Positions 11,923-15,568 of a stretch of DNA of 64,000 bases are shown piece by piece (the first letter of the stretch is position 1; every line of letters begins with the position of its first letter). Location of the stretch: the NCBI RefSeq assembly GCF_030373545.1, contig NZ_JAUDCO010000003.1, positions 62,001 through 126,000 of the forward strand, in the 5' to 3' direction. This DNA comes from Collinsella tanakaei (GTDB lineage Bacteria > Actinomycetota > Coriobacteriia > Coriobacteriales > Coriobacteriaceae). Below the pieces are notes generated by a model, which searched no databases, was not told where the DNA came from, and saw nothing but the letters and a program-made list of their open reading frames with translations. A program made the position numbers and the translations under genes.

Positions 11923-13362
11923 CTACAGCACCGAGCGCGTGCCGGCGCCCATCTCGACCACCGGCGACAGCGCGGCCACGGCCGCCTCGTCGGCGGCGAT
12001 ACCAGCCTTGACCTTCTCCATCTGCGCGGCGACGGCCACGGGCGCCGTTCCGCCCTGCGTCGTGCGCGCCGCCACGATGGCGTCCAGGTCGAACGCGCCC
12101 ACGACGTCGTCGCCGAACAGCTCGCTGGCAGCCTTGAACGTGTCGACCGGCAGCTCCGAGATATCGCAGCCCGCGCGCTCGGCCTCGAGCACGAGATGGC
12201 CCACCACGGCGTGCGCCTCGCGGAACGGCATGCCGCGTTTGGCAAGGTAATCGGCCACGTCGGTCGCCGCCAGATGTCCGCGGTGCATGACGGCGCGCAT
12301 GCGGTCGGCGTTCACCGTCCAGGTGCCCACCATCCCGCACATCACGGACAGGCACTGCTCGAGGGTGCGCGCGGCGTCGAGCGCGCTCTCCTTGTCCTCC
12401 TGCAGGTCCTTGTTGTAGGCCAGCGGCAGGCCCTTCACGGTCACGAGCAGCTGCACCAGGTCGCCCACCACGCGCCCGCTCTTGCCGCGAATGAGCTCGG
12501 CGAAGTCGGGGTTCTTCTTCTGCGGCATGATCGACGAGCCGGTCGAGTAGGCGTCCGACAGGGTGATGAAGCCGAACTCCTGGCTGCTCCACAGCACGAT
12601 CTCCTCGGACAGGCGCGACAGGTGCACCGCCATGACCGAGCAGGCATACTCCAAGTCGAGCAGGAAGTCGCGATCGGACACTGCGTCGAGCGAGTTCTCG
12701 ATCACGCGCGAGAAGCCCAGCGCATCGGCCGTCATCTGGCGATCGAGCGGATAGGTGGTGCCGGCAAGAGCGGCTGCGCCCAGCGGCGAGGCGTCGGCGG
12801 CGTCGAAGGCCGCGCGCAGGCGCGTGAAGTCGCGCGCGAGCATCCATGCATAGGCGAGCAGGTGGTGCGCAAACAGCACGGGCTGGGCGTGCTGCAGATG
12901 CGTCATACCGGGCAGGATGGTGTCGCCCGCCGCAGCCGCCGCCTCGACGAGCGTGTGGCGCAGCGCGAGGTTGCCCTCCATGAGCGAGGCGGAAAGCGCC
13001 TTGGCGGCCAGGCGCGTATCGGTCGCCACCTGGTCGTTGCGCGAGCGCCCGGTGTGCAGGCGCCCGCCCGCCGCGCCGATGCGACGGGTCAGCTCGGACT
13101 CGATCGCCATGTGGATGTCCTCGTCGTTGATATCGAAGGTGAAGGCACCGGCGTCGATATCGGCCTGGATCGCATCGAGCCCGTCATGGATGGCCCGGGC
13201 ATCCTCGGCGGAGATGATGCCCTGCGCGGCGAGCATCGCCGCGTGCGCCTTCGACCCGGCGATGTCCTGGCGGTACAGATGCCGGTCGACCGGCAGCGAC
13301 GCGCCGAACTCCTGCGTGAGCTCCGAGACCGACTCCTCGAAGCGACCTCCCCACAGCGCCAT
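11923..13362 (-). CDS. argH: Argininosuccinate lyase
   Basis: The 479-residue protein catalyses the last step of arginine synthesis, splitting argininosuccinate into arginine and fumarate. It has MALWGGRF at the start, LHTGRSRNDQ at 102-111, TFHLQHAQP-type segment THLQHAQP near 154-161, and the superfamily signature GSSIMPQKKNP at 275-285. Length matches the family. Its ATG follows directly on the stop codon of the small ORF at 13363-13590, so translation is coupled. It is transcribed with argG. Confidence 0.97.
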   Translation of the reverse strand: MALWGGRFEESVSELTQEFGASLPVDRHLYRQDIAGSKAHAAMLAAQGIISAEDARAIHDGLDAIQADIDAGAFTFDINDEDIHMAIESELTRRIGAAGGRLHTGRSRNDQVATDTRLAAKALSASLMEGNLALRHTLVEAAAAAGDTILPGMTHLQHAQPVLFAHHLLAYAWMLARDFTRLRAAFDAADASPLGAAALAGTTYPLDRQMTADALGFSRVIENSLDAVSDRDFLLDLEYACSVMAVHLSRLSEEIVLWSSQEFGFITLSDAYSTGSSIMPQKKNPDFAELIRGKSGRVVGDLVQLLVTVKGLPLAYNKDLQEDKESALDAARTLEQCLSVMCGMVGTWTVNADRMRAVMHRGHLAATDVADYLAKRGMPFREAHAVVGHLVLEAERAGCDISELPVDTFKAASELFGDDVVGAFDLDAIVAARTTQGGTAPVAVAAQMEKVKAGIAADEAAVAALSPVVEMGAGTRSVL

Positions 13363-13590: not shown

Positions 13591-13758
13591 GAGGACTCCA
13601 ATCGAGCTGTCGGGGATGGACACGCGGGCACGGCGGCCCGATATGGACCGTCCCCGGCGAGTCGCCGCCGGGGACGGTATCGCGGCGGGCACGAACCGCC
13701 GCGCATGGCAGGATGGCGCGCTCGAAGGGACTGCTCCGAATATGCGCCGGGAGAAAGC

Positions 13759-14991
<1,233 letters not shown>

Positions 14992-15142
14992 GGGAGTTCC
15001 TTTCGATATATGAGCGGATGGAACCGGATGAGCCCGCCTTGGCAGTGCTTGCGCTGCGCACACGCTTGATCGAGTTGTGTTGAGAGAAGCGACCTCGCGG
15101 ACGGGGCAAAGCTATGCGCATATGCGCGACCCCGTGGGGAGG

Positions 15143-15223
15143 AAAAACCCGACGCACCTATTGACGAACCCTGCTGGGGGCGTCTACCCCCATGCGAACA
15201 GAGACGACCAGGTTATCGTCGTC
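15143..15223 (-). promoter_or_regulatory. Probable arginine attenuator before argG
   Basis: On the minus strand four segments can pair alternatively. Segment 1 GACGAC (15218-15223, in the last Arg codons of the leader peptide) pairs with segment 2 GTCGTC (15203-15208). Segment 2 as CGTCT (15202-15206) can instead pair with segment 3 AGACG (15181-15185). Segment 3 as GACGC (15180-15184) pairs with segment 4 GCGTC (15151-15155), followed by GGG and five T (15147-15143). A TGGGGG/CCCCCA hairpin (15175-15192) also competes for segment 3. The stems are short (5-6 bp), so the exact fold is uncertain, but the order is that of a classical peptide-leader attenuator. Confidence 0.62.
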
Positions 15224-15326
15224 GGGAAATCGCACGCTGGCGTCGGATGGCAACCGTGGCGGCATTCTGGCCGGGCATGATGGCGCTTGCGGCCATGCCC
15301 TCGTATGTAGCCAGAACGTTGTTCAC
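15213..15326 (-). CDS. Arginine-rich leader peptide of the argG operon
   Basis: A GTG at 15326, with GAGGAG seven bases upstream, opens a 37-codon frame ending in TAA at 15213. The last eleven residues are IRRQRAISRRR, so six of the final ten residues are Arg, three of them consecutive CGA codons just before the stop. Ribosome stalling there when charged arginine tRNA is scarce would block the first hairpin of the downstream attenuator. Two internal ATG codons (15296 and 15278) could also start it, and would keep all arginines. Leader peptides rich in the end product are well known for amino-acid operons; I do not know of a described case for arginine in this group. Confidence 0.72.
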   Translation of the reverse strand: MNNVLATYEGMAASAIMPGQNAATVAIRRQRAISRRR

Positions 15327-15428
15327 CGGACAGCTCCTCGTCTACCGTCAGTACGTGCGATCAATACCGTGAGCGGCGGCGAATCTTCGCCAAGCGGTCG
15401 ATACCGCGCCCGCAACACGTTGGACGCT

Positions 15429-15456
15429 ACTATACGCTAAAGTGCACGCTTGTAAA
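15429..15456 (-). promoter_or_regulatory. Candidate promoter of the argG leader
   Basis: On the minus strand TTTACA (15456-15451) and TATAGT (15434-15429) are separated by 16 bp. Transcription would begin near 15422, about 95 bases before the leader-peptide start. Confidence 0.55.
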
Positions 15457-15528: not shown

Positions 15529-15568
15529 TATATATCAGCCATGAAACATACCTGAAACTTTATTCACA
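15529..15568 (-). promoter_or_regulatory. ARG-box-like site over a second argG promoter
   Basis: The minus-strand 18-mer at 15568-15551, TGTGAATAAAGTTTCAGG, matches the general ArgR operator pattern (TNTGAATWWWWATTCANW) at 15 of 18 positions. It overlaps TTTCAG (15557-15552), a possible -35 lying 17 bp from TATATA (15534-15529). ArgR-type repression of this promoter is therefore plausible. No argR gene is in the window. Confidence 0.5.

Follow-up and report, generated by a model that had tools for sequence, protein, structure and literature searches.

In the window, the 64,000-nt stretch of DNA of the gut bacterium Collinsella tanakaei analyzed here, a short reading frame ending in a run of arginine codons stands upstream of argG, and the question is whether translation of this frame could control the gene. 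An earlier note on the same DNA had read the frame as the leader peptide of an attenuator of the trp/his type. We compared the locus with its counterparts in related genomes; the features discussed below are collected in Table 1.

Locus and leader frame

The leader RNA of argG is predicted to start near 15422 and to be about 430 nt long, and the −10 region of its promoter (CTTTAGCGTATAGTAGCG) is kept in relatives. In keeping with the reading of the earlier note, the predicted promoter lies upstream of the leader frame, and promoter prediction in the window found no second one between the frame and argG. The frame itself is as that note had described it, with a GTG start codon (15326–15324) about 100 nt past the promoter, a GAGGAG Shine–Dalgarno (SD) sequence, and a TAA stop codon (15215–15213) directly after the C-terminal residues RRQRAISRRR, encoded by CGA CGC CAG CGT GCG ATT TCC CGA CGA CGA. 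Against the codon usage of 41 ORFs of the window, six Arg within the last ten residues would arise with P~1e-5 (Arg, 6.2% of codons) and four CGA among these six Arg codons with P~2e-5 (CGA, 3.3% of Arg codons). Because this clustering is improbable and the frame and SD are both seen, the peptide can be accepted as described. A strong inverted repeat (CCGTCCCCGGCG/CGCCGGGGACGG, about 13643–13682 of the window) was also observed between argG and argH, with no U tract seen.

Table 1 Features of the argG locus in the window. Letters a to g name RNA elements of the leader.
Feature	Positions	Strand	Basis or remark
MFS-like gene	16922–15654	minus	upstream neighbor of the 660-nt gap before argG
Predicted promoter, sigma-70-like: −35 TTTACA, 16 nt, −10 TATAGT	15429–15456	minus	promoter prediction
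SD sequence GAGGAG of the leader peptide	15334–15339	minus	sequence
Leader peptide ORF, 37 codons, MNNVLATYEGMAASAIMPGQNAATVAIRRQRAISRRR and stop	15213–15326	minus	frame; genus-wide conservation upstream of argG
Predicted hairpin in the leader ORF, 5' half (GGGCATGGC...GCCATCATGCCC)	15273–15300	minus	predicted fold; on inspection, several relatives retain the arms
Element a, opening control codons CGA CGC CAG (Arg-Arg-Gln), where a ribosome first meets Arg codons	15237–15245	minus	CGA and CGC invariant in 39/39
Element b, CCCGACGACGATAA, last three Arg codons (CGA)3 and stop	15213–15226	minus	CGA invariant in 39/39
Hairpin b:c over the stop codon, 15218–15223 with 15203–15208	15203–15223	minus	RNAalifold consensus of 23 leaders
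Hairpin P2 (CTCTG...GGGG/CCCC...CAGGG)	15169–15203	minus	in most clades, inner sequence varied, by inspection
Element f, GGGTTCGTC, 5' strand of helix f:g, directly after P2	15163–15171	minus	complementarity and covariation
Element e, GGTGCGTCGGG, which can pair alternatively with b (CCCGACG:CGTCGGG) or a	15148–15158	minus	complementarity and folding
U5 tract, terminator tail in the earlier note	15143–15147	minus	not conserved
Element g, GGCGGGCTC, 3' strand of helix f:g, ends 38 nt before argG	15030–15038	minus	complementarity and covariation
argG, argininosuccinate synthase, the proposed controlled gene	13759–14991	minus	ORF and homologues
argH-like ORF (argininosuccinate lyase)	11923–13362	minus	396 nt 3' of argG; assigned by sequence and context

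Conservation of the leader peptide and its codons

The leader DNA of the window matched 41 of 45 genomes of the same genus, and at all 30 same-genus loci checked the match adjoins argG, with the motif 175–410 nt upstream of the argG start. The four nonmatching genomes comprise a complete one without argG (G024), two incomplete ones in which no argG was seen (G035 and G038), and one with argG and no leader (G015). The last is a Collinsella whose argG locus (L073) bears no trace of the leader, a natural loss available for comparison. One scan of 84,980 bacterial and archaeal species genomes for the exact coding pattern RRQRAISRRR plus stop, allowing wobble degeneracy, gave 39 matches, all titled Collinsella, Enorma, Limicola, or other Coriobacteriaceae; none lay outside Coriobacteriaceae among these species. 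Weaker variants of the core, RRRRAISRRR and RRRRTIARRR, occur in leaders L074–L076 and L094. In genus g3 the leaders have decayed (L097 and L098, ending in ...PRICALPRRR): they read ...PRCSDAAPRICALPRRR before the stop codon and keep CCCGACGACGATAG, and their final three Arg codons with the stop (CGACGACGATAG) are intact. No Arg leader was found upstream of argC of the window's genome (L146, contig C20). Near the start of that argC, TATGCATTATGAA and ATATGCATTTAG repeats look like ARG boxes by eye.

ArgR is encoded in the window's genome, and leader control of argG therefore need not be exclusive. ArgR at the promoter might even be the main control, with the leader tuning basal expression or mRNA stability, and an ARG-box-like candidate site, TGAATAAAGTTTCA at 15553–15566 (minus strand), with the similar GTGCATAAAGTTTC in the near relatives L003–L005, is consistent with such an arrangement. 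The site lies, however, about 100 nt upstream of the −35 box, and the leader is conserved far more widely than was seen for the site; we regard this explanation as improbable.

The 39 distinct leaders show which parts of the frame are held constant. Core codons 1, 2, 8, 9, and 10 are CGA, CGC, CGA, CGA, and CGA in all 39, and codon 4 is CGC or CGT. The Ala, Ile, and Ser residues are kept in 38 of the 39, with changes at the wobble base only (GCA/GCG/GCT/GCC, ATT/ATC, and TCC/TCT/TCG), and the Gln in 35. The 5' half of the leader is more variable, nonsynonymous codon differences outnumbering synonymous ones in most comparisons, and few or no Arg residues precede the control codons. The length of 37 codons is kept across much of the genus, and one clade has 24 codons with the same end.

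The tRNA-Arg genes found in the window's genome have the anticodons ACG, CCG, TCT, and CCT. Since none with the anticodon TCG was found there, the inosine form of the ACG tRNA presumably serves CGA, CGC, and CGT alike. Decoding of A by inosine is slow. CGA, for which no dedicated tRNA was found, would provide a ready test of how synonymous codon choice sets the sensitivity of an attenuator. Such sensitivity has been argued to require that one particular synonymous codon be used and that control codons be present in high proportion (PMC1183508), and the CGA clusters of the leader fit this argument.

The Ala-Ile-Ser stretch between the Arg codons, conserved as amino acids, is not required by pure codon sensing, and this conservation may leave a place for an effect of the nascent chain. 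RRQRAISRRR could, for example, arrest its own ribosome from within the exit tunnel, with arginine possibly acting as coeffector, so that a ribosome at CGA-CGA-CGA-stop would set the RNA fold; the fungal arginine attenuator peptide and SpeFL with ornithine would be the models by analogy. The near-invariance of the Ala, Ile, Ser, and Gln residues and the constancy of the 37-codon length in much of the genus point that way. The variable 5' half and the 24-codon form with the same end speak against it, as do the related families described below, and on balance we find nascent-chain arrest unlikely.

RNA folds between the leader frame and argG

The earlier note had arranged the RNA after the Arg codons as a 1:2, 2:3, 3:4 series of stems ending in a terminator. 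Its first hairpin, GACGAC (15223–15218) with GTCGTC (15208–15203), is exact and is conserved in an RNAalifold consensus of 23 leaders, with base changes on one side only; the check proposed there, conservation in relatives, was borne out for the Arg codons (39/39 invariant) and for at least one stem. The third arm had been placed one position off (GACGC is 15184–15180), and its pairing with GCGTC (15155–15151), followed by T5 (15147–15143), can be formed. The arms of stems 2:3 and 3:4 and the T5 are not conserved, the arm at 15180–15184 being absent from the nearest relative, L003. The U tract after GGG has 5, 4, 3, 3, 2, 4, 2, and 0 T in L002–L009. With this loss from five T to zero, the clade has not conserved a trp/his-type terminator at 15143. 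A terminator scan of the window also found no intrinsic terminator between the leader ORF and argG, and this part of the earlier claim did not hold.

All ten window-clade leaders examined have some form of a terminator-like, GC-rich hairpin 3' of element e (15093–15142 of the window, minus strand, 50 nt), with an only weakly U-rich tail; it was rejected as a switchable terminator, as it gave no consistent response to the modeled ribosome position. The modeled effect of the ribosome on access to the argG SD was flat in nine window-clade leaders. Pairing of element e with the argG ribosome site is visible by eye in L009; it is inconsistent, and we do not claim it.

Folding of the window-clade leaders gave two alternative arrangements: a long b:e rod when a ribosome was placed at the first Arg codons, and pairing of a with e and of b with c when none was present. 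The local fold of the window is modestly better than that of shuffles (z −1.7). Complementarity of b and e survives in different registers across several clades, as CCCGACGAC:GTCGTYGGG in the C. aerofaciens clade, CTCGACGA:TCGTCGAG in clade D, and CGACGAT:ATCGTCG plus CTCCC:GGGAG (or CTCTCGA:TCGAGAG) in clade B. It is thus kept with clade-specific sequences, and the wobble base of the Ser codon therefore changes along with its partner. In clade D a real terminator has e as its 5' arm, and b:e is consequently a plain antiterminator there. The hairpin predicted early in the leader ORF, in its 5' half, is a possible polymerase pause hairpin, as in trp and his leaders.

Long-range pairing was sought as ungapped helices, a global duplex search having proved too permissive and been dropped. 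Helix f:g has nine pairs in the window, several of them G-U, and alone is not significant. At the matching positions the helix reaches 13–15 pairs in clade B, except in L015, and as many as 17 in clade C; these lengths exceed or approach the best obtained from 300 shuffles. Across ten distinct rows all 90 cells retain the nine-pair helix, with five pairs changed on both sides, and its covariation score is 0.81, compared with 0.35 for shuffles and at most 0.19 for slid controls; these figures are inflated because the rows were picked by eye at homologous positions, and the helix results for clades B and C are independent of that choice. Helices f:g and b:e would cross, giving a pseudoknot, if both form.

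The covarying f:g helix, together with the strongly conserved bases of CGACGCCAG, element e, and element f, might suggest a structured RNA that acts independently of translation, such as a riboswitch or a site for ArgR or another RNA-binding protein, with the Arg codons there by chance. In leaders of widely different length, however, an open frame with a start codon and SD is in register with the Arg codons, and variation in the core falls mainly at wobble positions. The leader region also matched nothing in Rfam. We consider a translation-independent element very improbable. Four leader peptides matched nothing in Pfam or NCBIfam.

The output step in the window's clade may be weak or Rho-dependent termination, or f:g may govern how accessible the argG ribosome site is; a speF-like change in such access (PMC6386406) is possible. 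We also considered the combined proposal that RRQRAISRRR is a bacterial arginine-sensing arrest peptide that acts through the pseudoknot of b:e and f:g, which would extend to within about 38 nt of argG, and not through a classical terminator; its chances appear rather small.

Related families, proposed mechanism, and known systems

Short frames with an SD and the core RRQxRR (nucleotides CGACGCCAGNNNCGACG) were found upstream of argG in 14 of 15 sampled genomes of another family of the order (f2, probably Atopobiaceae) and in 8 of 8 genomes of one genus of a third family (f3g18, which probably belongs to Eggerthellaceae). The remaining f2 genome (L113) has a variant, ...RRRGGIRDQRRQC..., and a terminator, both read by eye. 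No such leaders were found in the other sampled f3 genera or in other orders; in other f3 genera argR can stand directly before argG. CGACGCCAG is common to the RRQRAISRRR and RRQxRR cores. In f2 and f3g18 the residues after RRQxRR and the position of the stop codon vary, which argues against an arrest peptide.

An intrinsic terminator is present between the leader ORF and argG in Collinsella clades B and D, f2, and f3g18. It takes the form of a strong hairpin followed by U, beginning 79–107 nt past the core, in most f2/f3g18 leaders and in clades B and D, and several of these terminators were defined by hand. We folded the RNA with a ribosome masking all RNA 5' of a point 13 nt beyond the start of the A-site codon, in an equilibrium model that ignores RNA polymerase speed; the stalled value is the lowest of the first five codon positions, in real and shuffled sequences alike. 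For 17 f2/f3g18 leaders the mean terminator probability was 0.43 with a stalled ribosome, 0.98 with a ribosome at the stop codon, and 0.68 with no ribosome, and the stalled mean was 0.88 when the spacer was shuffled and the terminator kept. With a ribosome on the first Arg codons the probability fell to 0.08 or less in 9 of the 17, and it stayed above 0.5 in this model in the other 8 and in the five leaders of clade B, in which clade ribosome-dependent relief was absent. It was low without a ribosome too in L090, L092, L114, L121, and L122. L076 of clade D switches as well (0.01), and L094 does so in part (0.40). The first stem, seg1:seg2, joins core codons 3–5 to a site 39–50 nt into the f2/f3g18 leader; its summed pairs exceeded those of 200 of 200 shuffles, and GGACC:GGTCC stands against GAACC:GGTTC. 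Output in these relatives would most simply be transcription attenuation, and for them the earlier note's attenuator reading finds support in this computed, ribosome-dependent switching. The switching requires just a ribosome on the first Arg codons, a further point against nascent-chain arrest.

Control of argG in cis by an arginine leader peptide is, in our judgment, likely from the sequences compared, being well supported by the conserved peptide, codons, and synteny and by the in silico terminator switching in relatives. The peptide, its codons, the synteny, and several pairings emerged from comparison; the stalling, its sign, and the effect of the leader are what we infer. The leader peptide would be translated while the leader RNA is being made, and the species sensed would be charged tRNA-Arg(ICG), the only tRNA found that could read CGA and one that would read CGC and CGT too. 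When this charged tRNA is scarce, a ribosome would stall at element a and free the RNA just downstream for an alternative fold in which argG is expressed. With ample arginine, the ribosome would reach the stop codon and cover the downstream RNA, giving an off state that in the two related families would be the intrinsic terminator.

The trp, his, and ilv attenuators of Proteobacteria likewise combine a short translated leader, clustered cognate codons before a biosynthetic gene, and alternative RNA folds, and the f2/f3g18 relatives share with them, in silico, an intrinsic terminator relieved by a parked ribosome. As in leaders of the trp/his type, we found an SD and start codon, codons for the end product in a short ORF, and conservation of the control codons and of their place before argG. 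Arginine is not, however, among the described cases; the end of the Collinsella peptide is fixed residue by residue and uses a rare codon, and the window's clade has no conserved terminator. A survey of Actinobacteria reported leader-peptide attenuators of trp and leuS and no conserved RNA structure upstream of arginine operons (PMC1262725). The open-access literature that we searched held no earlier bacterial leader peptide for arginine biosynthesis, and an older description is possible. T-box leaders of arginine genes, as cited in that survey, are also RNA control by tRNA charging, but T-boxes bind uncharged tRNA directly, with no peptide, and no T-box model in Rfam matched the argG leader. 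The carA leader peptide of Pseudomonas aeruginosa, as cited in PMC4997734, likewise precedes a gene of the arginine and pyrimidine pathways, but its attenuation is described as pyrimidine control, and both gene and phylum are different.

Two other leaders sense arginine through Arg codons. In the orf34/SpeFL leader of Salmonella speF (PMC6386406), consecutive Arg codons in a leader ORF do so, and the output is decided between a hairpin that follows the stop codon and a larger, alternative structure. The gene there is one of polyamine synthesis, in gamma-proteobacteria, and Rho, access to the ribosome-binding site, and RNase G are involved; its peptide core, HIRRT*HIMM, is unrelated to the Collinsella leader, and the SpeFL family of Pfam (PF10940, according to PMC6386406) was not matched by the four leader peptides searched. 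The rbfL leader of rbf in Staphylococcus aureus (PMC13009471) uses rare Arg codons to sense arginine limitation, but it covers an overlapping ribosome site and represses translation, alternative folds are not needed, and rbf is not a biosynthetic gene.

If the leader acts as proposed, leader-peptide attenuation would extend to one more pathway, arginine synthesis, in an order of Actinomycetota that are common in the gut. The clades would also form a natural series for one gene, with a classical terminator switch in some and long-range pairing in others, so that evolution from one output to another could be tested.
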